A stretch of 64,000 nucleotides of DNA, from assembly GCF_040529055.1 (NCBI RefSeq), contig NZ_CP132342.1, forward strand, positions 1 through 64,000. The letters run 5' to 3'. The position numbers were made by a program, and so were the translations under genes. How positions within the stretch are numbered: the stretch's first letter is position 1; each line of letters starts with the position of its first letter. This DNA is from Xanthomonas sontii (GTDB taxonomy: Bacteria; Pseudomonadota; Gammaproteobacteria; Xanthomonadales; Xanthomonadaceae). Shown in pieces: positions 46,405-63,183 of the stretch. The notes beneath the pieces were generated by a model. That model was not told where the DNA came from. It did not search any database and saw only the letters and a list, made by a program, of their open reading frames with translations.

Positions 46405-47151
46405 ATGAAAATCCTCGTCGCCTACAAGCGCGTGGTGGACTACAACGTCCGCATCCAGGTCAAGCCGGACGGCTCCGGCGTGGTCACCGAGGGCGTCAAG
46501 CTCTCCGCCAACCCGTTCGACGAAATCGCCCTGGAAGAGGCGCTGCGCCTGCGCGACGCCGGCATCGCCAGCGAGGTGGTGGTCGCCACCATCGCCCCGG
46601 CCGATGCCGCCGCGCACCTGCGCAACGGCCTGGCGATGGGCGCCAACCGCGCCATCCACGTGGTCGCCGACGCGGCGATCCAGCCGCTGACCGCCGCGCG
46701 CACCCTGCTCAAGCTGGTCGAGCAGGAGCAGCCGGACCTGGTGATCCTCGGCAAGCAGGCGATCGACGACGACGCCAACCAGACCGGGCAGATGCTGGCC
46801 ACGCTGTGGGGCCGGCCGCAGGCGACCTTCGCCGGCAAGCTGGTGGTGGCCGACGGCAAGGCCACGGTGACCCGCGAGGTCGACGCCGGCCTGGAGACCC
46901 TGGAAGTGGACCTGCCGGCGGTGGTCACCACCGACCTGCGCCTGAACGAGCCGCGCTTCATCAAGCTGCCGGACATCATGAAGGCCAAGAGCAAGCCGCT
47001 GCAGACGCTGGCCTTCGCCGACCTGGGCGTGGAGGCCAACGACAGCCTCACCACCACCCACTACGCCCCGCCGGCCAAGCGCAGCCGCGGCGTGATGGTC
47101 AAGGATGCCGCCGAACTGGTGGCCGCACTCAAGCAGAAGGGGTTGCTGTAA
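46405..47151 (+). CDS. etfB: Electron transfer flavoprotein beta subunit
   Basis: 246-248 aa class protein (248 codons including stop) that binds AMP and, with EtfA, carries electrons from acyl-CoA and other dehydrogenases to ETF-ubiquinone oxidoreductase (34590-36233). KILVAYKRVVDYNVRI, GKQAIDDDANQTGQMLA and the LRLNEPRFIKLPDIMKA signature are clear. The last base of its stop codon is the first base of the etfA start. Confidence 0.96.
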   Translation: MKILVAYKRVVDYNVRIQVKPDGSGVVTEGVKLSANPFDEIALEEALRLRDAGIASEVVVATIAPADAAAHLRNGLAMGANRAIHVVADAAIQPLTAARTLLKLVEQEQPDLVILGKQAIDDDANQTGQMLATLWGRPQATFAGKLVVADGKATVTREVDAGLETLEVDLPAVVTTDLRLNEPRFIKLPDIMKAKSKPLQTLAFADLGVEANDSLTTTHYAPPAKRSRGVMVKDAAELVAALKQKGLL

Positions 47152-48089
47152 TGGCCAAGATCCTCGTCGTCGCCGAACATCTCAACGGGCAGCTCAACGC
47201 CGCCACCGCCAAGTGCGTCAGCGCCGCGCAGGCGCTGTCGGCCGAGGCCATCGACATCGTCGTGCTGGCCGCCGATCCGGCCGCGGTGGCCGCCCAGGCC
47301 GCGCAGATCGCCGGCGTCGCCCGTGTCCTGACTGTCGCCAATCCTGCCAACGAACACGCCATCGCGCAGGTGCTGGGCCCGCAGATCGCCGCCCTGGCGG
47401 CGGGCTACACCCACGTGTTCGGCCCCTCCACCACGTTCGGCAAGGACCTGATGCCGGTGGTGGCGGCCCTGCTCGGCGTCAACCAGATCTCCGACCTGAT
47501 GGCCGTGGACGGCGACTACGCGTTCAAGCGCCCGATCTACGCCGGCAACGCCATCATCAGCGTGCAGGCGCCGTCCGACCAGATCGTGGTCGCCACCGTG
47601 CGCAGCGCCTCCTGGCCGGAAGCGGCGCAGGGCGGCAGCGCGGCGGTCGAAGCGGCCAGCGTGGACGCGGCGCTGCCGAGCCACACCCGCTTCGTCGGTC
47701 TCGCCGCCGGCAAGTCCGATCGCCCCGACCTGCAGAGCGCCAAGCGCGTGGTCTCCGGCGGCCGCGGCGTCGGCTCGGCGGAGAACTTCCAGATCGTCTA
47801 CCAGCTCGCCGACAAGCTGAGCGCAGCGGTCGGCGCCTCGCGCGCGGCGGTCGACGCCGGCTACGTGCCCAATGAGCTGCAGGTTGGCCAGACCGGCAAG
47901 ATCATCGCGCCGGAGCTGTACGTGGCGGTCGGCATTTCCGGCGCCATCCAGCACCTGACCGGCATCAAGGACGCCGGCACCATCGTCGCGATCAACAAGG
48001 ACCCGGAATCGCCGATCTTCGAGATCGCCGACATCGGCCTGGTCGGCGACCTGTTCACGGTGCTGCCGGAGCTGGAAAAGGCGCTCTGA
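47151..48089 (+). CDS. etfA: Electron transfer flavoprotein alpha subunit
   Basis: 312 aa. The C-terminal FAD domain has [31 protein letters not shown] and [21 protein letters not shown]. It overlaps etfB by one base. It marks the left border of the Xanthomonas LPS locus, and base composition drops just after it. Confidence 0.96.
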
Positions 48090-48147: not shown

Positions 48148-48153
48148 TATAAT
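48148..48153 (+). promoter_or_regulatory. Candidate -10 element of the arabinose module
   Basis: A perfect TATAAT in GC-rich surroundings, 59 bases before the preferred start of the HAD-UbiA gene. No good -35 is visible at 16-18 bases. If it is used, the upstream ATG at 48152 cannot be in the transcript. Confidence 0.4.
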
Positions 48154-48211
48154 GCATCCTGCCTTGCGCCCACCGTCAGCACTGACGGCAAACAATCAGG
48201 ATAGCCAACTC

Positions 48212-49630
48212 GTGACACTAGAAAAGCGGGCCCTTTGCGTAGACCTCGATGGCACGCTGCTTCGTTCTGATGTTCTTTACGAATCCCTTTTGTCGCTGCT
48301 GGCGCGCAATCCCTTATACGCGCTGCTAGTTCCATTCTGGCTGCTTCGCGGCAAGGCAGCAGTAAAGCGCGAGCTTGCGTCGCGGGTCAGTCTAGCGCCT
48401 GAAACTCTTCCCTACGACGAGCGCGTGATAGAAATTTTGCGGACCACGCAGCAGCGGCCGCGCGTGCTCTGCACCGCATCCGACCGGTTGTTGGTGGCAC
48501 CTATCGCCGATCATCTAGGACTGTTTGAAGACGTCATTGCAAGTGACGGCGACATCAACCTAGCCGGACAGCGTAAAGCGGAAGCCCTAGTGGCTCGCTA
48601 CGGCGAGAAAGGGTTCGACTATGTTGCAAACGGACGCGTTGATCTGGATGTCTGGAAGCATTCCGCTCGAGCGATCGTTGTTAACGCCGGTTCTTCGCTG
48701 GCAGACAAGGCCGCGCGCGTCACCCAAGTCGAAACACATCTTCCCGCTCGAAATGGCGGGCTCGGCGCTTGGATCAAAGCGTTCCGGTTGCATCAATGGT
48801 TGAAGAACCTGCTGGTCTTTGTGCCGTTGCTGACAGCGCATCAATTCCTTAACGGGAAGGCACTAATCGATGCTGGGCTCGCGTTTCTGGCATTCAGCTT
48901 GTGCGCATCCGGCGTCTATCTGCTGAATGACCTGCTGGACCTCACTCCTGATCGCTTGCACGAGCGCAAGCGCAAGCGCCCTTTTGCGGCAGGCTCACTT
49001 CCTCTACTGCATGGATTGCTGGCCGCTCCGGCATTGACGATGGCCGGTCTTGGTTTGGCGCTGTGGTGTAGCTCTGACTTTCTTGTGGTTCTCGTGTGCT
49101 ATTACGTCATGACGCTGGCCTACTCGTTCAAGCTCAAGCGAATCGTGATGATTGACGTTGTACTCCTGGCGGCCCTTTACACGGTTCGCATCGTCGGAGG
49201 TACGGCAGCGATTGACGCCGTCATGTCGTTCTGGCTCCTCGCCTTTTCGATGTTCATTTTCCTCAGTCTGGCTTTGCTCAAACGCTATACGGAATTGGCT
49301 GCAGCCCTCTCCAACGGCAAGTTGCAAGCCGCAGGGCGAGGCTATTCAGTCACCGATCTCTCATTGATCCAATCGCTGGGCGCTGCGTCGGGCTACTGCG
49401 CAGTCTTAGTGCTTGCCCTCTACATCAATAGTCCACAAAGCGTAGCCCTTTACCGGCATCCGCAAGTGCTCTGGTTGTTGTGCCCGGTCCTCCTTTACTG
49501 GACCAGCAGGACATGGATCGTGGCCCACCGCGGCGAGATGCATGACGACCCAGTGGTATTCGCCGCAACCGATCGCGTTAGCCAAGTCGTGATCGCTGTG
49601 GCCGGACTCGTAGCGCTTCTCGCGATATGA
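48212..49630 (+). CDS. HAD phosphatase fused to UbiA prenyltransferase (decaprenyl-phosphate phosphoribosyltransferase type)
   Basis: 472 aa from GTG 48212 with AGGA eleven bases upstream; an in-frame ATG at 48152 overlaps a TATAAT and is disfavoured. Residues 1-180 form a HAD domain: CVDLDGTLLRSD, then TASDR, the Lys in GQRKAEAL and NGRVDLDVW. The rest is a UbiA integral-membrane transferase with eight to nine helices, first Asp motif LLNDLLDLTPDRLHERKRKR and second motif YSFKLKRIVMIDVVLL. UbiA enzymes in this context (Mycobacterium Rv3806c, Azorhizobium NoeC) join phosphoribose to a polyprenyl phosphate. The HAD part could remove the 5-phosphate, so one protein may do both steps. It overlaps the next gene by four bases. 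Confidence 0.85.
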   Translation: MTLEKRALCVDLDGTLLRSDVLYESLLSLLARNPLYALLVPFWLLRGKAAVKRELASRVSLAPETLPYDERVIEILRTTQQRPRVLCTASDRLLVAPIADHLGLFEDVIASDGDINLAGQRKAEALVARYGEKGFDYVANGRVDLDVWKHSARAIVVNAGSSLADKAARVTQVETHLPARNGGLGAWIKAFRLHQWLKNLLVFVPLLTAHQFLNGKALIDAGLAFLAFSLCASGVYLLNDLLDLTPDRLHERKRKRPFAAGSLPLLHGLLAAPALTMAGLGLALWCSSDFLVVLVCYYVMTLAYSFKLKRIVMIDVVLLAALYTVRIVGGTAAIDAVMSFWLLAFSMFIFLSLALLKRYTELAAALSNGKLQAAGRGYSVTDLSLIQSLGAASGYCAVLVLALYINSPQSVALYRHPQVLWLLCPVLLYWTSRTWIVAHRGEMHDDPVVFAATDRVSQVVIAVAGLVALLAI

Positions 49631-50931
49631 CGGATACTACGGGTCAATCCTGGGGGCGTTATCCGCGGGTAGAGCAGCGTCTGCACCGCCTTTATGACAG
49701 AAACACGCCGCTGCCGGCGCTACGCGAGGCCGCGCTGCCACATGGCAATGGCCGAAGCTATGGCGATAGTTGCCTCAATCCGGGGGGTACGCTGTATCTA
49801 ACTCGCGGCCTAGATCGCTTCATCGCATTCGACCCTGCGACGGGTATTCTTCGTTGCGAGGCCGGGGTGACGCTGGATGAGGTCATTCGTCTTGTGTTAC
49901 CGCAGGGATGGTTTCTGCCGGTCACTCCCGGGACGCGATATGCGACAGTTGGGGGCGCGATCGCTAACGACGTACACGGGAAGAATCATCATCGCGCAGG
50001 TAGCTTTGGCAATCATCTCCTTGCTATGGAGCTTTTGCGAACCGACGGAAGTCGCCATCTATTGCAAGCCGGTCACCCCAGCGGGCTGTTTGAGGCATCC
50101 GTGGGAGGGCTCGGTCTCACAGGCATCATTCTATGGGCTGAACTGCGACTGCGCCGAGTGCCGGGTCCATGGCTGGAAACCGAGTGCATTCGCTTTCAGA
50201 ACCTGGATGAGTTCTTCGCATTGTCGCAGGCTTCTTCCAGCGGATACGAATACACCGTTGCCTGGATCGACTGTCTCGCCAAGGGCAAACAAATGGGTCG
50301 CGGGCACTTCCTGCGTAGCGATCACGCCCCTGGCGACCGGCGTTCAGAGCCAAGGCAAGGCCAACGCAACATGCCGCTCACCCCCCCCTTTTCCATGGTC
50401 AATAGCTTGACCTTGGGAGCCTTTAATACAGCTTACTATTGGCGCCAACCATCCATTAGAAAGCGATACTCTGCGCACTATCGCAGCTATTTCTACCCAC
50501 TGGACGGCATCGCGAACTGGAATCGCATGTATGGCCCCAAGGGGTTTCTACAGCACCAGTGCGCGCTACCCTCGGAAACAGCACGCGATGCCGTTTCTGC
50601 GCTACTGACTGAAATCTCACATAGCGGTAGCGGCTCCTTCCTCGCTGTTCTCAAGGAGTTTGGAAACATACCGTCTCTAGGGCTGCTATCTTTTCCGCGC
50701 CCTGGAACGACACTTGCGCTCGATTTCCCTAATACTGGACAAGACGTATTCCGCTTGCTCGATCGACTTGACAGAGTCGTGGCACATGCCGGAGGAGCAA
50801 TCTATCCAGCGAAAGACGCGCGCATGTCGGCAGAGATTTTCAAAAGCGGCTTCCCGGCGTGGCAGCAGTTTCAGCGATATGTCGATCCACAACTTTCTTC
50901 TGGCTTATGGCGTCGCGTAACGGAGGTTTAA
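49627..50931 (+). CDS. DprE1-like decaprenylphosphoryl-beta-D-ribose 2'-oxidase
   Basis: 434 aa FAD-dependent oxidase of the VAO/ALO class. With the next gene it would epimerise polyprenyl-phosphoryl-ribose to the arabinose form. The FAD-binding segment includes PHGNGRSYGDSCLNPGG and GGAIANDVHGKNHHRAGSFG. The conserved YPAKDAR holds Lys396, equivalent to the catalytic lysine of mycobacterial DprE1. At the position matching the benzothiazinone-target Cys387 of that enzyme this protein appears to have Ala364 (alignment by eye, in FPRPGTTLALDF). It starts within the last codons of the HAD-UbiA gene (ATGA overlap) and its stop shares a base with the next start. Confidence 0.9.
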   Translation: MTDTTGQSWGRYPRVEQRLHRLYDRNTPLPALREAALPHGNGRSYGDSCLNPGGTLYLTRGLDRFIAFDPATGILRCEAGVTLDEVIRLVLPQGWFLPVTPGTRYATVGGAIANDVHGKNHHRAGSFGNHLLAMELLRTDGSRHLLQAGHPSGLFEASVGGLGLTGIILWAELRLRRVPGPWLETECIRFQNLDEFFALSQASSSGYEYTVAWIDCLAKGKQMGRGHFLRSDHAPGDRRSEPRQGQRNMPLTPPFSMVNSLTLGAFNTAYYWRQPSIRKRYSAHYRSYFYPLDGIANWNRMYGPKGFLQHQCALPSETARDAVSALLTEISHSGSGSFLAVLKEFGNIPSLGLLSFPRPGTTLALDFPNTGQDVFRLLDRLDRVVAHAGGAIYPAKDARMSAEIFKSGFPAWQQFQRYVDPQLSSGLWRRVTEV

Positions 50932-51665
50932 TGCAACGGGTTCTAATCATCGGCGCCACATCCGCGATCGCCGAGGCTGTCGCCAGGCGCTATGCGCAGC
51001 GTGGAGCCATGCTTGCTCTAGTTGGACGCAATGTTCAACGACTGGAAGCGACTTCGCAGGATCTACTGGCGCGTGGAGCGCCAGCCGTCACCGTGCACAT
51101 CCTCGATGTCAATCGTTTAGAAGACCACGCCACTTGTCTAGATGCAGCAAGCCAGGCATTGGACGGCGCGATCGATGTCGCACTCATCGCGCACGGAACG
51201 CTGCCGGACCAGGCAGATTGCACCGCTTCAGTCGAGTACGCGCTTCACGAATTCTCGACTAACGGAACATCCGCTATTGCGTTATCAATTCGATTGGCAC
51301 AAAAGCTAACGTCGGGATCAACGCTAGCAGTCATTTCCTCAGTGGCCGGTGATCGAGGCCGTTCCAGCAACTATTTATACGGCAGCGCAAAGGCAGCCGT
51401 TACCACCTTTCTGAGTGGTCTAGGTCAACAACTTCGCAGCAAGGGCATCAATGTGCTGACAATAAAACCCGGCTTTGTCGACACGCCGATGACAGCTCAG
51501 TTCAAAAAGGGTGCGCTCTGGGCGACACCGGATCGCGTAGCCCGCGGCATCCTACGCAGCATAGACAGGAAACGCTCCGTCGCTTACCTCCCGGGCTTCT
51601 GGCGTCTCATCATGGCCGTTATCACCCACATCCCAGAAACCGTTTTTCGCAGAATCAAACTGTGA
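50931..51665 (+). CDS. DprE2-like SDR reductase
   Basis: 244 aa from ATG 50931, preceded by GGAGG. A short-chain dehydrogenase with nucleotide-binding GATSAIAEAVARRYA, serine in AVISSVAGDRGRSS and the YGSAK catalytic pair. IKPGFVDTPMTAQFKKG and the hydrophobic tail match DprE2, which reduces the 2-keto intermediate made by DprE1 to polyprenyl-phosphoryl-D-arabinofuranose. The pairing with the previous gene makes this assignment much stronger than sequence alone would. Confidence 0.87.
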   Translation: MQRVLIIGATSAIAEAVARRYAQRGAMLALVGRNVQRLEATSQDLLARGAPAVTVHILDVNRLEDHATCLDAASQALDGAIDVALIAHGTLPDQADCTASVEYALHEFSTNGTSAIALSIRLAQKLTSGSTLAVISSVAGDRGRSSNYLYGSAKAAVTTFLSGLGQQLRSKGINVLTIKPGFVDTPMTAQFKKGALWATPDRVARGILRSIDRKRSVAYLPGFWRLIMAVITHIPETVFRRIKL

Positions 51666-52078
51666 GGCACTTAAAGTTAGTCGGCATGTATGCCGGTTTT
51701 GCTGCAATATCGATACTGGCAAACATTGGCACACAGGCGCTCTGCGTCTACCTGTATCGGGGCCCCTACTATTTACCTCTTTCCATGTGTGCAGGCACTG
51801 CCACAGGCCTCATCAGCAAGTACCTACTGGATAAGTACTTTATATTCTCCCACAAGAGCGAAGATCTTGGCGCAGAAGCGACCACGTTCGTTCTCTATCT
51901 CGCTATGGGCCTGATCACCACCATTATATTCTGGGGAACAGAAGCACTCTTCCAGGTCGCATTCAAATCTGATGCAATGAGATACGTCGGCGGCGTGATT
52001 GGCCTTTGCTTTGGCTACACACTGAAATACTGGCTGGACAAGAAATTCGTATTCAACAACGACAGATCCCGCCATTAA
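51662..52078 (+). CDS. GtrA-family membrane protein, probable lipid-linked sugar flippase
   Basis: 138 aa from GTG 51662, overlapping the previous TGA. Four transmembrane helices are evident, with the family motif GLISKYLLDKYFIF between helices 2 and 3 and LKYWLDKKFVF at the end. GtrA proteins act on polyprenyl-phosphate sugars. The mycobacterial neighbour of dprE1 (Rv3789) is of this family and has been linked to decaprenyl-phosphoryl-arabinose. Here it closes the four-gene overlapping cluster. Confidence 0.87.
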   Translation: MRHLKLVGMYAGFAAISILANIGTQALCVYLYRGPYYLPLSMCAGTATGLISKYLLDKYFIFSHKSEDLGAEATTFVLYLAMGLITTIIFWGTEALFQVAFKSDAMRYVGGVIGLCFGYTLKYWLDKKFVFNNDRSRH

Positions 52079-52159
52079 ACTAACCCACGGCGACTGGCCC
52101 AAGTCTGCCGACGGCGAAGAGATTGTCTTCGCCGCAAGCAGAGCCATAAAGGTACGCGA

Positions 52160-53806
52160 TCAGCGCTTTAGACGATAGAGATCAAGCACTGAGTATTCAC
52201 CAAAGTAACCCGGCGATGGAGTCTCGTACGTCTCTACGCGGTCGTAGTTGTCGAAGAACCACGCCCTATCCTCCCGCGTTGAGAACAACGGGGCGCCAGG
52301 GCAACTTTTGGGGGGAGTCACCATCGTATTTTTCTCCACCTCGAAGCGTCGCTTGATTACGAACTGCGGCTTTAGATCCTGCAGAGAACGCACGAAATAC
52401 CGGCAGCCATAATCATGCGCACGGGCCAGAGCGCTTTCATCCACTAGCCCAACCTCATCAAAGACGTGCGCATCATTGAAGTAACCCTGCCAGCCAGCGG
52501 CTTCCATCCAGACGGACTTTGCATGCCAGCGATCATTCAGCTCATGCGACAGTCGCCCACGGAAACCCGCGTCCTGCTGGATCCAGGAGATAATCTCGGC
52601 ACGTTTTGCCTCGGTACGCGGAACAGCTAGCCAGCACAGCGCAAGTACGCAGAAGGCAAATACCGTAGTTCGTCGGGCCGCACCGACGTCCTCTGCGCGC
52701 ATCCAAAGTATCGCCGTCACCACCAGACGGGAAAGCAACACGAGCACGAATGCCAGCCAGAAACTAACGTACCATTCCCACAAAGATGGGATCAAGAGAA
52801 TAAAGCAACTATAACCAGCCACGAACAGCGAATAAACGCCACTGCGCCAAGGCACGCTGTTCCGCCCTTGCTTGAAAAATATAAACGCATCGGCGAGCGC
52901 GATTATGCCGACAAGACTGAGCAACGCCACGCTGACCCCAGCACCCATCCCGATAAAGGCATCCAGATAGTCGAACCGATTCACGATTGCATCAAAGGTG
53001 AGGGGGCTAGAAGGAGCTCCAAAGTAGGCCTTAGCAGCAACCGTTCCAGGCACCAATCGCCCTGAAATCATCCAAAACAAAATGGGCACCGTCGCCACGC
53101 CAACTGCATACGCAGCGACGTCGCGTAGCACCTGCCGCCGGCCGCGCTGCAACAGGAGATAGGGCACAACGCTCAAGAACGCGACAACGGCGATCTCAGG
53201 TCTGTTCCAGGCAAGAACTGCAGCGATACCCGCCATCAAGTATGACCTTGCCTGACTCAAGGCCCCAGCCATCCAGGCTAAAACCGCAACAGAGAGCAGC
53301 AAGAAAGAACCTTCTAGCCCAAGATACAGAAAGCGTAATGGCCAAAAGAAGAAGACGGAACACACGGCGAGAACGACAGCCGTCAATGTGCGCGTATGCC
53401 GTGGCGCCCGATACACCAGGATCACCATTGCGGCTACGTTGAAGATTACACATGCCAAGTAGTGAAGTGCCAGAACATCCTGACCTCCAGTCAACACCAT
53501 CAGCGGCTTGACTATGACGCTGGAAGCCAGCCAAAACAGCGGATCTGTGACCCCGAGCGCTGAGTAGCCCACATTGTAGACAAGACCATGCCCCTCCAGC
53601 ATATTGCGAAGGTGCCTCAGACCAATCATCGCATCCTCTTGCATTCCCACGTGACGCAATGCATAAACTAATTGAGCAGAGGGCGCTAACGCTATCAATA
53701 TCGCCAAAAAAGCGATCAGTATATCCAAGCCCCTCTCGACAGTGAAATCCCCTATTAAACCTTTCCAACCCATATCACGTCCAAGCATGCGCACACTTAT
53801 ACCCAT
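52160..53806 (-). CDS. GT-C membrane glycosyltransferase, candidate arabinofuranosyltransferase
   Basis: 548 aa with about ten to twelve transmembrane segments in the first 400 residues and a soluble C-terminal domain. The first periplasmic loop has QEDAMIGLRHLRNMLEGHGL followed by VYN and GVTDPLFWL. This is the acidic-residue pattern of polyprenyl-phosphate-sugar-dependent GT-C enzymes such as mycobacterial AftB. I infer it uses the arabinose lipid made by the convergent four-gene cluster, because no other donor system lies beside it. Starts at ATG 53806, 53788 and 53770 are all possible; the last has GGA six bases upstream. Confidence 0.75.
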   Translation of the reverse strand: MGISVRMLGRDMGWKGLIGDFTVERGLDILIAFLAILIALAPSAQLVYALRHVGMQEDAMIGLRHLRNMLEGHGLVYNVGYSALGVTDPLFWLASSVIVKPLMVLTGGQDVLALHYLACVIFNVAAMVILVYRAPRHTRTLTAVVLAVCSVFFFWPLRFLYLGLEGSFLLLSVAVLAWMAGALSQARSYLMAGIAAVLAWNRPEIAVVAFLSVVPYLLLQRGRRQVLRDVAAYAVGVATVPILFWMISGRLVPGTVAAKAYFGAPSSPLTFDAIVNRFDYLDAFIGMGAGVSVALLSLVGIIALADAFIFFKQGRNSVPWRSGVYSLFVAGYSCFILLIPSLWEWYVSFWLAFVLVLLSRLVVTAILWMRAEDVGAARRTTVFAFCVLALCWLAVPRTEAKRAEIISWIQQDAGFRGRLSHELNDRWHAKSVWMEAAGWQGYFNDAHVFDEVGLVDESALARAHDYGCRYFVRSLQDLKPQFVIKRRFEVEKNTMVTPPKSCPGAPLFSTREDRAWFFDNYDRVETYETPSPGYFGEYSVLDLYRLKR

Positions 53807-54163: not shown

Positions 54164-55180
54164 ATGCGCATTCTGGTAACAGGTGGAGCTGGCTACATCG
54201 GCAGCCACGTTTGCGTGGAACTGTTGCAGCGCGGGCATGAGCTATTGATCTACGACAATCTCTGCAATTCGCGTGGCGATGTCACAGAAGCGATAACGGC
54301 CATCACTCATAAGCCCGCACCGCTAGTCGTAGGCGATGTTCGCGATAGCGGCGCCCTAATGGAATGCATGCGTCAGTTCGTCCCCGAGGCGATCATCCAT
54401 TTTGCGGCGTTGAAGTCCGTTGGCGAGAGTCTGGAGCATCCTCTCAGCTATTACGCCAGCAATATCGGCGGCACTGTGAATCTCCTGCAATGCATGGCGC
54501 AACTGGGCTGCAAGAAGCTTGTCTTCAGCTCGTCGGCGAATGTCTATGGCGTCCCCGAAAGATGCCCAGTCAAGGAAGATGCTGCCCGCTCCACTTCCAC
54601 GCCTTACGGGCGCACCAAACTCTTCGGCGAACACATCATTCTGGACGCGCGTGCCGCGGATCCGGACCTCAAGGCAATCAACTTGCGCTACTTCAATCCT
54701 GCGGGCGCCCACCCATCAGCACTCATTGGAGAGCGACCCGTTGGCAAACCCAGCAACCTCGTCCCCTTCGTGGCACAGGTGGCACACGGGTGGCATCCTT
54801 CAGTGAAGGTCTTCGGCCACGACTACCCTACGCCCGACGGCACTGGCGTAAGAGACTTCATCCATGTCTGTGACCTAGCCGAAGCGCATGTGCAGGCGCT
54901 TGAGCATATTGACGCTATCACGGACCTCGACGCAATTAACCTTGGCACTGGCCGCGGGTACTCGGTCCTGGAAATCATTCGAGCATTTGAAACGGCATCA
55001 GGCCAATCGATCCCCTTCGATCTTGTGGACAGGCGCCCCGGCGACATACCGGAAAGCTGGGCCGATCCATCTTTAGCAGAAGAAAGAATGGGCTGGAAAG
55101 CCAAACGTGATCTAATGGCAATGTGCAAGGACGCTTGGCGCTGGCAGCAGACATTGCAAAAGCCGCTCGCTGGCGCTTAG
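54164..55180 (+). CDS. galE: UDP-glucose 4-epimerase
   Basis: 338 aa extended SDR converting UDP-glucose and UDP-galactose, possibly also the N-acetyl forms. NAD-binding TGGAGYIGSHVCVELL, VFSSSANVYG, catalytic YGRTKLFGEHI and GTGRGYSVLEII are present. It is a single plus-strand gene between two minus-strand blocks, ending 17 bases from a convergent glycosyltransferase. It suggests galactose, GalNAc or a derivative in the O-antigen. Confidence 0.95.
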   Translation: MRILVTGGAGYIGSHVCVELLQRGHELLIYDNLCNSRGDVTEAITAITHKPAPLVVGDVRDSGALMECMRQFVPEAIIHFAALKSVGESLEHPLSYYASNIGGTVNLLQCMAQLGCKKLVFSSSANVYGVPERCPVKEDAARSTSTPYGRTKLFGEHIILDARAADPDLKAINLRYFNPAGAHPSALIGERPVGKPSNLVPFVAQVAHGWHPSVKVFGHDYPTPDGTGVRDFIHVCDLAEAHVQALEHIDAITDLDAINLGTGRGYSVLEIIRAFETASGQSIPFDLVDRRPGDIPESWADPSLAEERMGWKAKRDLMAMCKDAWRWQQTLQKPLAGA

Positions 55181-55197: not shown

Positions 55198-57246
55198 TCA
55201 ACTTCTGCCCGAGTGGCCGGCTACCCGCCTCGCAAGGTGATAGAGCACCCTGATCAGAAGGCTGAAGCCAGGAAGACGACGAAGCACATTGAGCTGGCTC
55301 AACGACTGCTCCAGCTCCGAGAGCAACAATCCAGAAAAGGCGCTACCGGGGATCTGTTCTGGCGCAATGATGGGTTGGAGGCTAGCGAGGCCGCCTCCAG
55401 CCCCATTGATAGGCACCATTTCCATGACGAGACAAGCATGGCGTCGCCGCATGTCAGCAGAATGGATCATTGATCCTTGCCGCTGTCGATATAGGAAATG
55501 TACATCTGGCGTCACGATGAACCGGCGTCCTTCTGACAGAGCTCGGCGATAGAACTCCCAATCCTCGTACGCTCTTAGATCTTCGCGATAGCGAAGTCCT
55601 ACCACGACCTCACGCCTGGCAAGGCACGTAGCGGTGGAAAAGGAGTTCATATATCGACCGGACCAAAAGCCCTCCCCCAATAAGGGGATCACATATTTCA
55701 TCTCCAATGAATGAAAACTCTGCTCGCGAGATACTGAGGTAAAATAAGCGGCCTTAGGGATGACGAAATCGAACTCGGGATTTCGTTGCAGCGCTCCAAC
55801 GGCGACCTCAATAAACGTCGGGCTAATGATGTCGTCGGCGTCGAGTGCAAGCACATAATCCCCACTAGCCGCCAGCATACCCACGTTGCGGGCAGCAGAA
55901 AGTCCTATGTTGTAAGGCAACCAGACCACTCTAAGGCGGCCACTTTGCTCCTGCTCAAGGCGCCGAAGCGTGCTCCGAGACGCTTCTTCCGTGGATGCGT
56001 CATCCACGACCAGAACATCAAGATTCGGGTAGCTTGAAGACCATACGCTCGCCAGCGTACTACATATGTATTCGCCCAAATTGAAGTGAGTAATTACCAC
56101 AGCGACGCGCGGAGCTTCAAGAGCTATCTCCTTACGCGAATCACCACAGTCAGGCAACGACCATACCGGAAACGCCGGCGGCGCCAGAGACGGGCGCCAA
56201 GTTAAAGACTGAGCCAGCGCATCGAGCAGTTGCGTCACTTCGCCATTGTAGGCAAGGATATTATGTCCAAGCCTCCAACCAGACTCCTCGCGCAACGCTG
56301 GATTGGCAGCATTGACAACGCAGCGCACTCCATTTGACGCTATCTCGATGACCTGCATCGCGGCAGGCGCCCAACGATTAGCAAAAATAGCCACTGTCAT
56401 CGAATTGGCAGACTTACCCCAATCCGAGGGCAATTGTCTGAGGCGGCCACGCAAATCCTTGGGCACTAACGCAAGATCTGCTCCAGCGACCGTCATATCC
56501 AGACGAAGACCACCGCGCCATTGGGGATTTTGTCTGCACAGTCCGACGAAGGCTCTCATCACAATGCGCAATGACTGAGGCTCGTCAGAAACGCACACGA
56601 AATCATCGACAGCCACGTCCCCAGCCACGCCTAGGGCGAAGGGAGCCTGCACCAACGCACACGCCAAGCGCTCCTGCAGGGCATCTGCCTCCAAGCCGAG
56701 CGCGCTACAAAAATCACTTGAGATCGCAGAGTTAAGGCAAATCGCCAGATCACAGTCGCGTAGCGTTTTACGCTCCAGATCCATCAGCCTCAGGTCGGCA
56801 AGACACAGGGGTTGCGCTCTACGGATCGACTCAAGCGCGCTGCACCTATTTAGACGAACGGCAATGGTGGCGCCAGCGAATCCCCAATTGAGTAAACGTG
56901 CCTGCAGCGTGGAAAAAGCGATTCCGCAAAATATGGGAAACTCTATGTACGTGGCACGCATATGCAGATCCAGAGCGCGCAATCCCCGCATCACCGACGT
57001 ACTTCGATAGAAACTCAAGTCATCGTTACTGCTAGCGAGAGTCGGAAAGCGCCCTGGAGCAGAACCGGGCTCTGCGTCGGCGTCAACATCAAGAGACACC
57101 CTGTTGTGCCAACGAAGTTGCCCTCTATCTTCTCCGATGATGACCAAAAGGCTTTCATAGGGTTCGGAGGCCAACCTGGCTTGCAGCAACAGAGCGTCTT
57201 CCTCGTCAAGAGTAGAGCAGCTGCCATCAAATACAAAAACGCGCAT
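55198..57246 (-). CDS. Two-domain glycosyltransferase, degenerate GT-B plus intact GT2
   Basis: 682 aa. The N-terminal 360 residues follow the layout of the neighbouring paralogue's GT4 domain but lack its donor-site features: there is no glycine-rich loop near the start, and the usual E-x7-E region reads NRWAPAAMQVIEIASNG. From about residue 380 comes an intact GT-A (GT2) domain: VAVVITHFNLGEYICSTL, VLVVDDAS, NIGLSAARN, the DxD in LALDADDI and the ED motif in YEDWEF. The active unit is therefore probably only the C-terminal half. It is the last gene of the leftward LPS operon, three bases after its paralogue. Confidence 0.87.
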   Translation of the reverse strand: MRVFVFDGSCSTLDEEDALLLQARLASEPYESLLVIIGEDRGQLRWHNRVSLDVDADAEPGSAPGRFPTLASSNDDLSFYRSTSVMRGLRALDLHMRATYIEFPIFCGIAFSTLQARLLNWGFAGATIAVRLNRCSALESIRRAQPLCLADLRLMDLERKTLRDCDLAICLNSAISSDFCSALGLEADALQERLACALVQAPFALGVAGDVAVDDFVCVSDEPQSLRIVMRAFVGLCRQNPQWRGGLRLDMTVAGADLALVPKDLRGRLRQLPSDWGKSANSMTVAIFANRWAPAAMQVIEIASNGVRCVVNAANPALREESGWRLGHNILAYNGEVTQLLDALAQSLTWRPSLAPPAFPVWSLPDCGDSRKEIALEAPRVAVVITHFNLGEYICSTLASVWSSSYPNLDVLVVDDASTEEASRSTLRRLEQEQSGRLRVVWLPYNIGLSAARNVGMLAASGDYVLALDADDIISPTFIEVAVGALQRNPEFDFVIPKAAYFTSVSREQSFHSLEMKYVIPLLGEGFWSGRYMNSFSTATCLARREVVVGLRYREDLRAYEDWEFYRRALSEGRRFIVTPDVHFLYRQRQGSMIHSADMRRRHACLVMEMVPINGAGGGLASLQPIIAPEQIPGSAFSGLLLSELEQSLSQLNVLRRLPGFSLLIRVLYHLARRVAGHSGRS

Positions 57247-57249
57247 GTT

Positions 57250-59442
57250 TTAGATCGCACGCCTACCTAAACGAGCCCTAAAGCCGAGCGTCCTGCGCGC
57301 CAGCCATTTGCCGAATCCCAGCGACCATGGAGCCCGCCTTTGCAAAAATCTCGCACACGCTAATGCATAGCGCACCGCTTCACTTTCACGCAGTTCACGC
57401 AGTTGCTGCGACGCCACATCAGATCCGATAATGATCATGCCGGAGCCACCTCCGCCCTGCACGCCGATTGCATACGCAGGCACAACCAACGATGACCCGA
57501 TATTGATCTGTTTGGAGTGCATCAGGCGTCGATACGCTTGTACATAGGCGTCTGAGGGGCTCGCAACTCCATTCGTCATCGGATGCATGGGATAGGATGC
57601 AATTTCAACTGCTGATGAAACAACAATCGCGGATCCCGATTGACATAGCCTGAGCAGAAATTCCCATCCTTCGGAAACGGGCAATGCTTCATCGAAGCGC
57701 AGCGTCCGGGCGACGGCCGTCCGAACCATGAAGGACTCAGGGCCAAAACGATTCTCGTACAGCCCGCCAAGCCTAGCTTCTCCGCAAAATATGCTGTACA
57801 GATCGAAGTTGGCGTTGCGATCAACGGCTGACGGCAGATTAGAAGCGACACCATATTGCGCAGTAACCGCGTCGCATCGCGAATGGTTAGCAAGGCAATG
57901 CAAGCCCCTGGACAAAAATCCCGCGCTGACAAACTCACCGGAACGGATGAAGAATACCGTATCCGACTCGATAAGTTCGATTGCAGCATTACGTGCGACC
58001 GCTCCTCCGCTACGCATGACTTGGCGGACGACTGTGATCCCGTCGCCCAACCCAGCCAATGCATGCAGCGCGTCCGGACTCGTCGGGTCACTCGACGCAT
58101 CGTCAACCACAACTATCTTACTGATAGCCGCGTTGGAACCTAGGACGCTGTCGACGGTCGCTAGGAGGTTACTTCCGCCATCCTGATTCAGTATGACAAC
58201 GGACAGACTAGGCAGCACCCCACGCCTCGCAGGAGGCTCGCTGTAACAAAACATCCATGGCTTGGCATCGTCCGGAACCTCAACCGGAACGCGCTCCGCT
58301 GCCCCCGAATCAGAGAATATATGAAGTAGAGCTGAGGCAAGCCCGCCTGCCGTTCCATCGAACTTCGCGCAGTTCCTACCATCAACCCAAGGAGTTCCAG
58401 CGCCAAATGCGGGATTACGCTCATTGAGCACACAAACGGCACCGGCGAGGGACGCTTCATAGGCGGCAAGGCAGAAAGATTCCCAAGGCGACGGAAAGAT
58501 ACATACCGACTCACCGATTGCTTGCTCTCGCGCCGCCCCAGATACCCCTGCTCTGAAGGACACCCGATCCTTCAGATCCTGAGGGATCAGAGAAATGATC
58601 GCTTCTCTGTAATTTGCGTCGAAAGAGTGAGCAAGGAAAACGATTTTCCCGTTGTACTTCGGAGCCGAGCGCATGAACTGCACACAGCCCCTCACAAAAA
58701 TATCTGGACGTTTGATATCTTGAAGTTTAGAGGAAAAAACCAGAGGCGTTTCAACCCCAAGCTCAACGCTTCTTGAAACAGGTTCAAGATGATCCAGCAG
58801 CACGGGCGGGGCATGCAAGCAAACCCTTTTATCCCATTCGATCGGATCGAATCCATAAAAACACTGGAACGCACGCGACACAGTCGACAACTGTGCGACG
58901 ATCAGATCGCAATCGGCCAACGCCTTGCGCTCAAGATCGTAAAGACACAAACCATGCACGCTAGGCGCACGCGGCTCAAAATCGCAAAGAATGCTGTCGG
59001 TTGTATGAAGACGGACGGCGAGGACTGTCTCGGCAAAGTCGCTACCAAGCAGCTTTTCCTGTGTGCAAGCGAATGCACCCGCTCCCCAGTCGATAAACTC
59101 TACGTAATCGAGTTTTCCATGGAGCTGCTGTAGTTTTCTCAACCCCTGCAGAACCAGCGTCGACTCCCAATGCAACACCGTGTTGCTATAGCTATGCATC
59201 GGAGCATAGCGCCTGCCCTGATCGTCGCATAGTTGGTAATCGGGACTGGCGAACGCAAGAAATGCGACGTCGGGATAGACGGATGAAAAGCTATCTGCAG
59301 ACACATTGTCGCCAATGTAAAGCACGGCCATATGTGCGCGCTGCTCTGCAGGTGTGGTTGCCAATATATTTGCAACCACACGACCTATGCCTCCAGCGGT
59401 AAAGGGATACAGTTCCCGAGTCACAAAAACTGTCAAGCCCAT
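57250..59442 (-). CDS. Two-domain glycosyltransferase, intact GT4 plus degenerate GT2
   Basis: 730 aa. The N-terminal GT-B (GT4) domain is intact, with YPFTAGGIGRVVANIL at the start and the E-x7-E motif in ESFCLAAYEASLAG at about residue 320. From about residue 425 a GT2-like domain follows (LSVVILNQDGGSNLLATVD, IVVVDDASSD). Where a DxD should stand the sequence reads FFIRSGEF, and the ED motif has become SEGWEF. This half is probably inactive as a transferase. The pattern is the mirror image of the adjacent paralogue. The gene starts three bases after the upstream stop. Confidence 0.87.
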   Translation of the reverse strand: MGLTVFVTRELYPFTAGGIGRVVANILATTPAEQRAHMAVLYIGDNVSADSFSSVYPDVAFLAFASPDYQLCDDQGRRYAPMHSYSNTVLHWESTLVLQGLRKLQQLHGKLDYVEFIDWGAGAFACTQEKLLGSDFAETVLAVRLHTTDSILCDFEPRAPSVHGLCLYDLERKALADCDLIVAQLSTVSRAFQCFYGFDPIEWDKRVCLHAPPVLLDHLEPVSRSVELGVETPLVFSSKLQDIKRPDIFVRGCVQFMRSAPKYNGKIVFLAHSFDANYREAIISLIPQDLKDRVSFRAGVSGAAREQAIGESVCIFPSPWESFCLAAYEASLAGAVCVLNERNPAFGAGTPWVDGRNCAKFDGTAGGLASALLHIFSDSGAAERVPVEVPDDAKPWMFCYSEPPARRGVLPSLSVVILNQDGGSNLLATVDSVLGSNAAISKIVVVDDASSDPTSPDALHALAGLGDGITVVRQVMRSGGAVARNAAIELIESDTVFFIRSGEFVSAGFLSRGLHCLANHSRCDAVTAQYGVASNLPSAVDRNANFDLYSIFCGEARLGGLYENRFGPESFMVRTAVARTLRFDEALPVSEGWEFLLRLCQSGSAIVVSSAVEIASYPMHPMTNGVASPSDAYVQAYRRLMHSKQINIGSSLVVPAYAIGVQGGGGSGMIIIGSDVASQQLRELRESEAVRYALACARFLQRRAPWSLGFGKWLARRTLGFRARLGRRAI

Positions 59443-59445
59443 CGA

Positions 59446-61578
59446 TCATATCTCCAGAAAATCTGCGTAGCGCGTAGCAGCCAAGGCGGTGAGTTGCTCA
59501 CAGTAGGAATCCATCATCCCGTCCATCTCCGAGTTGTCTACGGACAACACCCGAGAAATGGCTTCAGAAACACCAATTACCGAAAGCGGGTCGTCGACCT
59601 GCGTACATCTTACGTATGGATGATCCTCAAGAGCATCCAAGCCAAGGCGTCCACGTATGCTCGGAGTTCCCACGGCCAATGCTTCAAGCTCAACCATCGG
59701 ATGGCAGTCGACTATGGAAACATTAAGTACCAGATCTGCAAGCGACATGGTCTGCAACATCTGCCTTGCATCCAATTTCGGAAGCCGCTCAATCGGCTTT
59801 CCGGGTGTGTAAGGTAGATGGAAATCGTCCGCAAGTACCCAGACCTTTCCGACCGATGGCGAATGCACGGCTGCTGCCACATTGGTCATCAGGTTCTTAT
59901 GTACAAGGTTCCAGGAAGGCGAGAAAGCAGTGGCTGCATCCCGGCGCCGGGCGACCTTCCTCCTGAGCGACGGGGCAAAAGGCGGAACGTTGTAGATCTG
60001 CGGCCTCCAGCCAACCTCACCGATCGTGACATCGCTCCCCCCACGCATGCATTGAATCCGCCGGATCAACCCCTCATGCGCCATTTTGAGAGCCATCGAA
60101 AAAAACTTGCGTTCCTCCGTATGCACCCACATGACCGGTGCCCCATGCCAAACTAGATAGACATGATCAAACCCTGCTTCGCGCAGCCCCCTGATCCAGT
60201 GAGTCATCTGGAGCGAGAATCCATGCACGACGAGACGCTCAACAGCGCGCGCCTGCAGCCATTGGGAAACGTCCTCCAAATCGGCGGATGTTGGACTGGA
60301 GCCAGCATCGATTGCCAGCTTGTGACCAGGCAGCGCCCCGGCCGCCGCGCGGATGCCGAACCACTGCTGATGAAATACGTGACAGACTTTATCGAAACCA
60401 GGAACTGAGCGGGTGAACATGGTATCCCGCGCAGAATCCAATTCGTACGGCGGGGGCACCAAGGAAGCCGTTGAGAGCGATGCAGACGTTGAGGAGCCAT
60501 GCGGAACGCCTTCCTTCTCGGAACGGCCAAGCACCGCCGCTCTGATTTTTGCCCTCAAATCGAGCTGCCGCTCCAGGACCGCAATTCGTTCTACATCGGC
60601 AGAACTCCTTTCTGTATCGTCGCGAATGCGATCAATAAGCCGTTCGCCAAGCTGCACCACCCTATAAATGGGCGAATCCGATGCCGCGCCTTCCAATAGT
60701 TCCGGACGCGTCTCCCTGACTTTCTCAAGCAGCTTATCGGCTGCGCGCTCAGCAGCATGCAGCATTTCATCTGCATCGTGCGCTCTTCCAAGCGCTGCCC
60801 CCTCGACTTTGGAGGCGAATTCAGACTCCGCTGTGCGCACAGCCGCGATGGTATTTTCGTGAACCTTGTCAAGATAGTCGGTTCTGCTCACAGGCACGAA
60901 CTGTCCGCCAGTGAACCAACGCAAACAACGAGTTTCGCTGGATTCAGCGGGCCGCAACACGTAAAGCCCATGATCAGGAAAGGATTCACCGTCAACGTCA
61001 AGTTCGAAATCCTGCGCCAACGTGAAAGCGTAATCATGCGTCCAACAGCCGGCGTGCCACCGATTACCCAGAATATCGATCGAAACCGGCTTGTTCTCTA
61101 TCAAGCATATTTCGCCCTCTTTGCGCAAAACATGCCGCATCGCCTCAAGCGCTGAGCGCGCTTGCTGGCGATTATTGTGGATCAATACAGAAACAGTAAA
61201 TATCACATCGAAACTTTCTGGACCCCACGGCAGATCCTCGCCAACGGCGATCCGCTCATGGATGATATCAGCGAGCAAAGCCGGCGGGCTATCAAAAATC
61301 GGCTGCACCATAGCCGTGGAAATGTCGAATCCATAGTATTGGACGCCATCAATTTCAGAAAGGAGGTATGTCATCCTTCCGAATCCACAACCGAAATCTA
61401 GCACCGAGATCGGCCCTCCTTTGGCAGCGACAAGCTTCCTAAGGTAATCTTGCAGCCAGCGCTCCTGCATTTCGTAATTTACGTTATTTAACTCGCGACG
61501 AATGCGCTGCTGTTCCGCATATAGCCGCCCGTCCCTGTTCAACCAATAATCGCGATTCTCGCCATCTGAACTAGTCAT
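59446..61578 (-). CDS. Methyltransferase, helical spacer and glycosyltransferase fusion
   Basis: 710 aa. Residues 30-215 form a class I SAM-dependent methyltransferase (VLDFGCGFGRMTYLL at about 59-73, YYGFDIS, VSVLIHN). Residues about 245-345 are charged and helical, likely coiled coil (ADEMLHAAERAADKLLEKV and RIAVLERQLDLRAKIRAAVL). Residues about 385-705 resemble a GT-B glycosyltransferase (LAIDAGSSPTSADLEDVSQW, NVPPFAP, VDCHPMVELEALAVGTPSI). Joining a methyltransferase to a coiled coil recalls WbdD, which caps O-antigen chains and measures their length. Its place next to wzt supports a chain-end role, but that is inference. It shares one base with the wzt stop. Confidence 0.82.
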   Translation of the reverse strand: MTSSDGENRDYWLNRDGRLYAEQQRIRRELNNVNYEMQERWLQDYLRKLVAAKGGPISVLDFGCGFGRMTYLLSEIDGVQYYGFDISTAMVQPIFDSPPALLADIIHERIAVGEDLPWGPESFDVIFTVSVLIHNNRQQARSALEAMRHVLRKEGEICLIENKPVSIDILGNRWHAGCWTHDYAFTLAQDFELDVDGESFPDHGLYVLRPAESSETRCLRWFTGGQFVPVSRTDYLDKVHENTIAAVRTAESEFASKVEGAALGRAHDADEMLHAAERAADKLLEKVRETRPELLEGAASDSPIYRVVQLGERLIDRIRDDTERSSADVERIAVLERQLDLRAKIRAAVLGRSEKEGVPHGSSTSASLSTASLVPPPYELDSARDTMFTRSVPGFDKVCHVFHQQWFGIRAAAGALPGHKLAIDAGSSPTSADLEDVSQWLQARAVERLVVHGFSLQMTHWIRGLREAGFDHVYLVWHGAPVMWVHTEERKFFSMALKMAHEGLIRRIQCMRGGSDVTIGEVGWRPQIYNVPPFAPSLRRKVARRRDAATAFSPSWNLVHKNLMTNVAAAVHSPSVGKVWVLADDFHLPYTPGKPIERLPKLDARQMLQTMSLADLVLNVSIVDCHPMVELEALAVGTPSIRGRLGLDALEDHPYVRCTQVDDPLSVIGVSEAISRVLSVDNSEMDGMMDSYCEQLTALAATRYADFLEI

Positions 61579-62294
61579 TAGTTTCGCATCTCGTCGGCGA
61601 TCACACGACCATGCTCAAGATGCATGATGCGATTGCAATTCGCACTAATAATATCTTGATTGTGGCTTGCTAACACCAAAATACTCGCTTGGCTCACGAT
61701 ATGAGCGAGACGCTGCTGCGCCCGGGCATTAAAATCAGCATCACCCACACCCAGCCATTCATCCATCAACAAAATCTCTGCATCGAAGCTGGTTGCGATG
61801 GCAAAGGCAAGCCGCACTAGCATTCCGCTTGAGTAAGCCCGCACGGGCATTGCGACGTAGCTGCCAAGCCCAGAAAACTCAACAATAGCAGGTATTTTTT
61901 TTGCGATTTCATGGCTTGACAATCCATGCAGCAGGCCTTTCAGCCGCACGTTTTCGAGGCCTGTCGCCTCGAAATCCATACCCATCGTCACGTCTAGAAG
62001 ATTCGCGATACGACCCTGGCTTCGGACATAGCCGAAGGTGGGCTCATAAATACCAGCGAGTGTTTTCAGCAGCGTAGTCTTGCCGGCACCATTGTGTCCG
62101 ACCAAGCCAAGCTTATCACCCTCGCGCAGTTCGAACGAAACATCCCGAAGTGAGTCCACCACTGTGATATTGCGACTTGTGGGCGCGACCTTTCCGCCAG
62201 TAACCGCTGCCATGATGACACCTTTCATGGACCGATTATTGGCGCCATAGATGGGTAACTTTACGCTGCAATTTACAACACTAATGAACGTCAT
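61578..62294 (-). CDS. wzt: O-antigen ABC transporter ATP-binding protein Wzt, short form
   Basis: 238 aa. Walker A is GHNGAGKTTLL, the signature is YSSGMLVRLAFAIA, Walker B is ILLMDEWLGVGD and the switch His is in LASHNQD. It energises export of the lipid-linked O-antigen with the adjacent permease. It stops right after the nucleotide-binding domain, so it lacks the C-terminal carbohydrate-binding domain that lets some Wzt proteins recognise a methylated chain end. It starts one base after the wzm stop. Confidence 0.93.
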   Translation of the reverse strand: MTFISVVNCSVKLPIYGANNRSMKGVIMAAVTGGKVAPTSRNITVVDSLRDVSFELREGDKLGLVGHNGAGKTTLLKTLAGIYEPTFGYVRSQGRIANLLDVTMGMDFEATGLENVRLKGLLHGLSSHEIAKKIPAIVEFSGLGSYVAMPVRAYSSGMLVRLAFAIATSFDAEILLMDEWLGVGDADFNARAQQRLAHIVSQASILVLASHNQDIISANCNRIMHLEHGRVIADEMRN

Positions 62295-62295
62295 T

Positions 62296-63183
62296 TCACA
62301 CCCAAAAGGAGATCTTATGCCTGTTCACAGCAAGAAACGGCACTGCGACCAAATAGCAACCAATAGTGAATCCGATCACCACCCAGTAGGAATGGGCGGC
62401 CGGAATCTCACCCATAAGCGGGGCACGCACAAGCTGGATGAAATGATATACGGGATTGAAGTCCGCAACCCACCGATGCGGCCCCAGCATATCGGCCTTC
62501 CAAATGATCGGCGTCATGAAGAAGCCGAGCTGCATGAAGTTTGCGATAGCTGGCTGCAGATCTCGAAATCGTGCAGAAAGCAGTCCGAACAGCGCAGTTA
62601 CAGGAATAGATGCCAAAAGAATAGCAACCACGCCCGGAATGGCCAGCCACCATATTGCTTGCGGCTCTATTTTCAGGTAGATGGCGAACGGTATGTAAGC
62701 AATTGCACCGTGCAAGAACACGATAAAAGTGCGGACCACAAGCCTCATACAGTGCAGAGTCAACGGCAGCCGCATGGAACGGATAAGGTTTTCGGAAGCC
62801 GTGAAAGTGGTACACCCCTCCTGGACCGTTGTAGAAATATAGATCCAGATAATATCGCCAAGCGCAATATAGGGCAGGTAATCCCTTAAATTCATTCGGA
62901 AAAGCTGGCTATACAACAGCCCAACACCTAGGATCAGCACGAACATGCTTATCGTGATCCAAAGTGGCCCGAGAATTGAACGGCGGTACTTATGCTTTGT
63001 ATCCAGCACAGCCAAGGAGAACCAAGCACGCCATGCTCCCATTCCGGCAACCACATCGGCAGCCAACGATCGCATTGGGCTTTGTTGAGTGTCCCTGTAG
63101 CACGCATAGTGCGAAGAAGACAGTTTCGAGGCGCGACTTTCGGCCGTATGTATTGCTGTCCCCGTCTGGTTTTGGCTAATCAT
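62296..63183 (-). CDS. wzm: O-antigen ABC transporter permease Wzm
   Basis: 295 aa with an N-terminal cytosolic stretch of about 50 residues and six transmembrane helices. It shows the ABC-2 polysaccharide-export features: KHKYRRSILGPLWITISMFV before helix 1, and FFMTPIIWKADMLG then NPVYHFIQLVRAPLMGE near the end. Its start codon overlaps the metB stop (ATGA), so the export genes follow metB in one transcription unit or are translationally coupled to it. Confidence 0.93.
   Translation of the reverse strand: MISQNQTGTAIHTAESRASKLSSSHYACYRDTQQSPMRSLAADVVAGMGAWRAWFSLAVLDTKHKYRRSILGPLWITISMFVLILGVGLLYSQLFRMNLRDYLPYIALGDIIWIYISTTVQEGCTTFTASENLIRSMRLPLTLHCMRLVVRTFIVFLHGAIAYIPFAIYLKIEPQAIWWLAIPGVVAILLASIPVTALFGLLSARFRDLQPAIANFMQLGFFMTPIIWKADMLGPHRWVADFNPVYHFIQLVRAPLMGEIPAAHSYWVVIGFTIGCYLVAVPFLAVNRHKISFWV

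Follow-up and report, generated by a model that had tools for sequence, protein, structure and literature searches.

A putative D-arabinofuranose donor and transfer module with an AftB-like glycosyltransferase in a Xanthomonas lipopolysaccharide locus

Introduction

Two described systems come closest to a set of five genes at positions 48152 to 53806 of a 64,000-nucleotide stretch of Xanthomonas sontii DNA (contig NZ_CP132342.1, positions 1 to 64,000; hereafter the window), whose host is by inference a Xanthomonas of group 1. One is the mycobacterial decaprenyl-phosphoryl-arabinose (DPA) pathway, comprising Rv3806c, Rv3807c, DprE1, DprE2 and Rv3789 (PDB 8j8j, 4aut). By homology, the window genes share its UbiA, DprE1 and DprE2 chemistry; the mycobacterial pathway likewise has a GtrA-type gene, and AftB (PDB 9dlf/9dlh) is the nearest sequence to the window's membrane glycosyltransferase of the C fold (GT-C). 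The phosphatase role, however, falls to a UbiA-fused HAD domain in the window and to the protein Rv3807c in mycobacteria, and the acceptor here would be O-antigen, with undecaprenol expected as the lipid in a Gram-negative host.

The other is the Citrobacter youngae O1/O2 system (ORF15, ORF14, ORF12/GT136), which belongs to the three-component pentofuranose pathway defined by Kelly in 2024 (PMC11127046). This system shares with the window a HAD-UbiA donor synthase, one or more auxiliary epimerases, an exporter, a GT-C and an O-antigen context. Its exporter is a MATE protein, whereas that of the window is of the GtrA/SMR type, and its transferase is GT136 (ORF12, with a D31/E34/H106/R349 residue set), that of the window being AftB-like. 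The closest solved sequence relative of GT136 is ArnT (PMC11127046), which ranks below AftB in the comparisons made with the window GT-C. The same survey names Xanthomonas as a candidate in which there are several epimerases or GT-Cs, reports an alpha linkage in all but one pentofuranose example and cites AftB as precedent for beta. A further parallel is GtrABC-type periplasmic O-antigen glucosylation, which also relies on a GtrA exporter, a lipid-phosphate sugar and a GT-C acting after polymerisation; GtrB is replaced in the window by HAD-UbiA, DprE1 and DprE2.

The site itself has been described in lipopolysaccharide (LPS) loci. Genes of Xoo BXO8 (ORF9-17), Xac 306 and Stenotrophomonas maltophilia R551-3 occupy the same etfA-end position as the window module (Patil 2007; PMC2238763). 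In that paper, BXO8 carries a prenyltransferase, an oxidoreductase, a short-chain dehydrogenase, an epimerase, an oxidase and GtrA, with counterparts in Xac 306; the paper does not call them arabinofuranose genes, and 'arabin' does not occur in it. Compared with the window, the published Xanthomonas blocks add a nicotinamide adenine dinucleotide (NAD) epimerase, a flavin adenine dinucleotide (FAD) oxidase, a 328-aa membrane protein and other large membrane proteins. S. maltophilia R551-3 is described with three genes at the etfA end. Two code for a short-chain dehydrogenase and an oxidoreductase, the third for an integral membrane protein that probably corresponds to UbiA; this is a short form like that of the window.

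Results

Overall architecture and proposed pathway

The interval from etfB-etfA to metB constitutes the LPS locus, and the five-gene module sits at its etfA end. We consider it probable that these genes form a polyprenyl-phosphate D-arabinofuranose (D-Araf) donor and transfer system for O-antigen, as suggested by gene content, protein families, conserved motifs, predicted fold, neighbourhoods and the replacement of the surrounding locus. The four donor genes taken by themselves very probably make prenyl-phosphate-D-Araf, a lipid-linked form of a sugar familiar above all from the cell walls of tuberculosis-type bacteria.

In the proposed pathway, the UbiA part of the first protein would transfer ribose-5-phosphate from phosphoribosyl pyrophosphate (PRPP) to undecaprenyl phosphate, and its HAD part would take off the 5′-phosphate. 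DprE1 would oxidise C2 and DprE2 would then reduce the product to the arabino form. GtrA would help the lipid-linked sugar cross the inner membrane, where the AftB-like GT-C would add D-Araf on the periplasmic side, as a side or end residue, to O-antigen exported by Wzm/Wzt. The linkage would be beta if the GT-C works like the retaining AftB, which is a guess from that analogy.

A sequence-only reading of this DNA had proposed four overlapping plus-strand genes followed by a convergent GT-C gene, and this layout is borne out, with all five open reading frames (ORFs) intact and in the expected places. The donor genes overlap by 4, 1 and 4 bases (ATGA at 49627-49630, TAATG sharing one base at 50931, and GTGA at 51662-51665). 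The DprE2-like gene starts at ATG 50931 and not at the longer ORF start 50859, from which the ORF used in the family scans of this protein was taken. The same reading had noted a lower guanine-plus-cytosine (GC) content, and the module genes, at 0.49-0.57, do fall below the 0.695 found upstream; the low values, however, extend to wzm at 63.2 kb and cover the entire O-antigen locus, so that low GC was rejected as a mark of the module alone. Two inverted repeats were seen in the sequence. One, CCGCCGCCC/GGGCGGCGG at about 48106-48130, occupies the gap after etfA, ahead of the module; the other, GGCGAAGA/TCTTCGCC, is located where the GtrA and GT-C genes converge.

Donor genes

The HAD-UbiA fusion (48152..49630, plus strand), a predicted polyprenyl-phosphate phosphoribosyltransferase with an N-terminal 5′-phosphatase, scores 669.6 bits against NF006088 (cut-off 351), and the next-best models are decaprenyl-phosphate phosphoribosyltransferases below their cut-offs. 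Its UbiA half matches PDB 8j8j, a decaprenyl-phosphate phosphoribosyltransferase, at 1.8e-26, and the motifs DLDGT (residue 31), NDxxDxxxD (259) and KRYTE (377) are present. The genome holds one HAD-UbiA match at E<=1e-20 and three UbiA-family matches in all. C. youngae ORF15, which has the same HAD-then-UbiA order, makes prenyl-phosphate-ribofuranose from PRPP (PMC11127046). Its mutated residues N247, D248, D251, D255, R366 and E369 and HAD residue D18 all have counterparts here; R366A and E369A variants of ORF15 were still active (PMC11127046). Since the HAD domain is fused to UbiA and keeps the ORF15 counterpart residues, the phosphatase step appears to be built in, and the domain can plausibly supply a 5′-phosphatase activity that resides in a separate protein in mycobacteria. 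The UbiA-type phosphoribosyltransferase with HAD phosphatase and catalytic residues that marks the three-component pentofuranose system is thus present.

The DprE1-like FAD oxidase (49627..50931, plus strand), for which C2 oxidation of prenyl-phosphate-ribofuranose is predicted, has the DprE1 model NF053785 as its best family (366.8 bits, under the cut-off of 500). In the PDB it matches DprE1 at 1e-76, and other types of FAD oxidase follow only at 4e-7, so the grouping with unrelated oxidoreductases that the sequence-only reading had named as its counter-case is not what is seen for this protein. The motifs GRSYGD, HGKNHH, FLQxQ and AKDxR are retained; among FAD oxidases the protein is thus closest to DprE1 and keeps its active-site motifs. 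It has Ala at the Cys position of mycobacterial NVCVDFP, the Cys that benzothiazinones target.

The third module protein, a 244-aa short-chain dehydrogenase/reductase (SDR; 50931..51665, plus strand), is DprE2-like as judged by place and kinship. It exceeds the cut-off of the SDR model NF005489 (311.4 bits, above 267) and carries YGSAK at residue 150. The fourth, a small GtrA membrane protein (51662..52078, plus strand; PF04138), is a candidate flippase that scores 163.6 bits against NF037976 (above 50) and gives the module an exporter gene, of GtrA type and not MATE as in the C. youngae prototype. Pfam cut-offs are passed by all four proteins (UbiA, FAD_binding_4, adh_short, GtrA). The own genome has a second GtrA gene at C1:122646-122996 (L135); inspection by eye of ORFs picked from the surrounding 7 kb revealed no glycosyltransferase.

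The AftB-like glycosyltransferase

The candidate arabinofuranosyltransferase is a 548-aa GT-C protein (52160..53806, minus strand) assigned as AftB-like from profile and fold. Family scans gave it no Pfam or NCBIfam match; among 13 members of its family, one matches Pfam DUF4131 at 0.00034, all else being weaker. The only PDB match of the family profile up to E=1 is the mycobacterial arabinosyltransferase AftB (E=1.1e-4), which was not found in the PDB by single-protein phmmer with the window GT-C. AftB has a catalytic D62 and an essential R221 (PMC12041299), and these align with D58 and R202 of the window protein. A Foldseek search with the predicted model also ranked AftB first (8.2e-6). Model and fold searches therefore place in this cluster the GT-C expected of a three-component pentofuranose system. 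One Xanthomonas and one Dyella GT-C searched singly returned no PDB glycosyltransferase, although such a search has less power than the profile search made for the window protein.

Across 20 Xanthomonas genomes, own included, the window GT-C occurs in its own alone (1/20), and the profile detects it in none of the 19 other genus loci. At E<=1e-10, among the matches listed, relatives were found in the own genome only in a search of 369 class and 398 phylum genomes, which included the own genome and, in the results shown, scored at most 3 candidates per genome. Related loci were also drawn from outside the genus as the best 80 of 582 confirmed DprE1 loci, a sample of near relatives in which two repeat G001 and G013. 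In one of these 80 named loci (L055, from a gammaproteobacterium), the family profile finds a distant relative (E=1.6e-19, 25% to P0002) at L055:5945-7402, directly upstream of and on the same strand as PF03706-type, UbiA, DprE1 and DprE2 genes. We regard an AftB-like transferase in an O-antigen locus as new.

Association with O-antigen genes

The GT-C gene lies between the donor module on one side and galE, large glycosyltransferases, wzt/wzm and metB on the other. A 45% relative in genome G766, recorded as Comamonas sp. KCTC 72670, is found near rmlA and rmlB. The genes beyond it parallel those of the window: on the other strand runs a stretch 21-26% like the two large glycosyltransferases of the window; a 760-aa gene there (L128) is 32% like both and abuts a 29% counterpart of the window's methyltransferase gene. 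The strongest pointer to O-antigen as the acceptor is that the GT-C moves together with O-antigen genes. G766 carries UbiA-DprE1-DprE2 elsewhere (L075). Homology and neighbourhood thus lend support both to the earlier biochemical reading of prenyl-phosphate-D-Araf synthesis, export and GT-C transfer and to its O-antigen link. The L075 record, BNCN01000012.1, bears the same Comamonas sp. KCTC 72670 name, and its DprE1 pairs with that of Myxococcus vastator (100/99); the organism label looks wrong.

Past the GT-C gene, galE (UDP-glucose 4-epimerase; 54164..55180, plus strand) scores above the TIGR01179 cut-off. All further genes are on the minus strand. Two encode large glycosyltransferases with C-terminal GT2 domains (PF00535) at 55198..57246 and 57250..59442, the latter being the counterpart, by place, of the 760-aa L128 gene. 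They are followed by a protein with an N-terminal methyltransferase domain, matching methyltransferase families and assigned to O-antigen assembly (59446..61578), and by a wzt-like ABC transporter ATPase of 238 aa (61578..62294) that is 35-45% like the locus ATPase of 19 other genus genomes over 182-234 aa. A 295-aa wzm-like ABC transporter permease (62296..63183) is encoded by the ORF adjoining wzt, as published for the LPS locus (PMC2238763). The right border, metB (63180..63998), is cut by the window end and is present in 20/20 genus genomes.

Replacement of the locus interior within the genus

Loci of the 20 Xanthomonas genomes were compared by tblastn. The left border, etfB-etfA (46405..48089, plus strand), is conserved, with etfB in 20/20 genomes and the window etfA at a mean identity of 93.2% to the 19 others. 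DprE1 and DprE2 occur together in 12/20 loci, a number that a whole-genome DprE1 search reproduces. Eleven of these 12 also carry an NAD epimerase (PF01370), an FAD oxidase (PF01593) and a second GtrA type, and in ten a PF03706 gene separates etfA from UbiA. All four are absent from the window, and tblastn did not detect the window's own GtrA type in any of the other 19 genus loci. Two further genomes, G002 (L096) and G018 (L112), have a HAD-UbiA gene 62% like that of the window adjoining etfA, without DprE1/E2, and are candidate systems for ribofuranose or another pentose. In G005, G016 and G017 the FAD oxidase has a 30-31% relative but HAD-UbiA is absent, and tblastn gave no match to any module query in G007, G011 and G015.

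Against the other genus genomes, the window proteins average 70.5% (UbiA, a mean that takes in G002 and G018), 67.6% (DprE1) and 70.1% (DprE2) identity, whereas the 11 other DprE1 genomes among themselves average 92.3, 89.6 and 92.0%, G002 and G018 being left out. The donor genes stand at about 68-71% within conserved borders, and the locus interior was therefore exchanged. The etfA-metB interior, module included, replaced an older locus, which probably held the longer version of the module. Derivation of the window module from the usual Xanthomonas one by deletion of genes was rejected in view of the same figures (68-71% vs 90-92%). Horizontal transfer at Xanthomonas LPS loci, as reported in 2007 (PMC2238763), agrees with exchange. 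We also regard the shortened module and its exchange with the locus as new.

In the usual Xanthomonas module, the NAD epimerase (L018:11921-12976) and an FAD amine-oxidase-type enzyme (L016:13010-14308) come after DprE2. It is a matter of speculation that the two may convert prenyl-phosphate-D-Araf further, into a different pentose. Epimerisation of D-arabinose at C4 gives L-xylose, a sugar that has been reported in a Xanthomonas O-antigen.

Related loci outside the genus

Among the 80 named DprE1 loci, UbiA lies near DprE1 in 74 and DprE2 in 76, and a HAD-UbiA-DprE1-DprE2 set is common. NAD epimerase and FAD oxidase are both present in 29 of the 80, and the window's GtrA type in three. All 17 named loci with etfA in view have both extra enzymes; the short form of the window is therefore the exception at the etfA site in this sample.

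A DprE1 tree of 90 rows was built from 78 of the named loci, the duplicates of G001 and G013 being dropped, and 12 genus rows. In this tree the partner of the window is Stenotrophomonas sp. Ste86 (100/99), and the pair is sister to 15 Xanthomonas rows. A distant origin of the donor genes was rejected on this placement. The donor genes may differ in source from the GT-C, GtrA and O-antigen genes.

As a side observation, 16 of the 29 loci L038-L066 have a PF03706-like gene that either immediately precedes UbiA or separates it from DprE1. These 16 are without a GtrA match, and GtrA is near DprE1 in 39/80 loci. The PF03706-like gene is a possible alternative exporter or transferase.

Discussion

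The gene set described here belongs to a known type; its transferase is a variant and its history informative. The sequence-only reading had regarded it as undescribed for Xanthomonas, and this does not hold: the set is common among DprE1 loci, genes at the etfA end were published in 2007 (PMC2238763), and the 2024 pathway paper includes arabinofuranose versions and Xanthomonas candidates (PMC11127046). That reading was also silent on the possible 5′-phosphatase role of the HAD domain and on the unusual, shortened form of this copy. Beyond those candidates, no report of D-Araf in Xanthomonas LPS was found among the papers listed in a search of mostly open-access journals.

Several observations weigh against a D-Araf system serving the O-antigen. 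Its sugar, activity, acceptor and linkage are all read from genes. On the donor side, none of the 12 genus DprE1 matches reaches the DprE1 equivalog cut-off, the DprE2 model NF053786 comes second for the window protein (188.8 bits, under 250), and, according to PMC11127046, direct proof that GtrA-type proteins of these systems act as flippases is lacking. On the transfer side, the AftB match is weak and partial, covering profile positions 37-245 and leaving the essential R372 outside. The VIA-align Z score for AftB (16.2) is close to those for Pmt (15.2) and ALG12 (15.0), and the fold therefore does not choose the sugar. The GT-C gene is on the opposite strand, outside the donor operon, no BLAST relative of it appears in the 80 named DprE1 loci at 1e-10, and its G766 relative does not adjoin donor genes.

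These last three points would also fit a GT-C that belongs to the O-antigen, uses another lipid-linked sugar and neighbours the donor module by chance. We find this quite unlikely. The sole PDB sequence relative, AftB, uses prenyl-phosphate-Araf, and the catalytic Asp and one Arg are kept; a distant family member stands directly upstream of UbiA-DprE1-DprE2 in L055; and the one outside genome examined that has the GT-C also has UbiA-DprE1-DprE2. Furthermore, between the module and metB the only large many-span proteins are this GT-C and Wzm. Less probable still is a module that stops at ribofuranose or another pentose. The HAD-UbiA step alone does yield prenyl-phosphate-ribofuranose (PMC11127046), and G002 and G018 show the gene without DprE1/E2. 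The window, however, has intact, overlapping genes for both a DprE1-like protein, which retains the DprE1 motifs, and a DprE2-like one, and the candidate systems for arabinofuranose glycans in the 2024 survey are those with DprE1/E2 homologues (PMC11127046). Least probable of all is that the module is what remains, decayed or silent, of an earlier LPS cluster: the longer version in 11 genus DprE1 genomes, with epimerase, FAD oxidase and PF03706 genes missing here, could suggest this, but the five ORFs are intact with their overlaps, and the donor genes differ by about 30% from their relatives, unlike a usual set with pieces lost.

The main rival acceptor is pilin. It is unlikely, though somewhat less so than the alternatives just discussed, that prenyl-phosphate-D-Araf is made but goes to a different glycan, first and foremost type IV pilin, as happens in Pseudomonas. 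Araf on P. aeruginosa pilin comes from a DprE-type pathway, as cited in PMC11127046, and the own genome has two neighbouring pilin genes directly followed by a large multi-span protein without a Pfam family (L134:7582-9423; C1:2135581-2137419). Of the candidates scored, 2318 are related to this protein at E<=0.001, some of them called ArnT-family or protein O-mannosyl-transferase, and it is likely to be a pilin glycosyltransferase. Its orthologues (87-88%), however, occur in G007 and G011, both without a HAD-UbiA match, and it therefore need not use an arabinofuranose donor. Moreover, a relative at E<=1e-30 is present in only three of the 12 DprE1 genomes (the window's, G008 and G014), and the window GT-C keeps O-antigen gene company in G766. 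Aligning the GT-C profile with the pilin-linked protein by hhalign gave nothing, as did phmmer of that protein against the PDB. GT4-type, PF03706, methyltransferase and GT2 genes adjoin the pilin locus on the minus strand at L134:9508-13352.

We therefore favour D-Araf transfer to O-antigen. A bolder combined proposal is possible though doubtful, namely that a retaining AftB-type GT-C caps Xanthomonas O-antigen with beta-D-arabinofuranose in mycobacterial style, and that the etfA slot is an exchange site for lipid-phosphate-pentose modules at which the short Araf form replaces a longer one that carries the sugar onward via epimerase and FAD oxidase. If true, it would mean mycobacterial-style terminal beta-arabinosylation on Gram-negative LPS, in contrast to the mostly alpha-linked pentofuranose side chains of the 2024 survey (PMC11127046).

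From the module, a defined sugar, D-Araf, is predicted for the O-antigen in a plant-associated genus, and its GT-C represents a family of AftB-like enzymes in Gram-negative bacteria for which Pfam has no entry. The swapping of pentofuranose modules between species at one fixed site bears on the surface variation seen by plants and phages.

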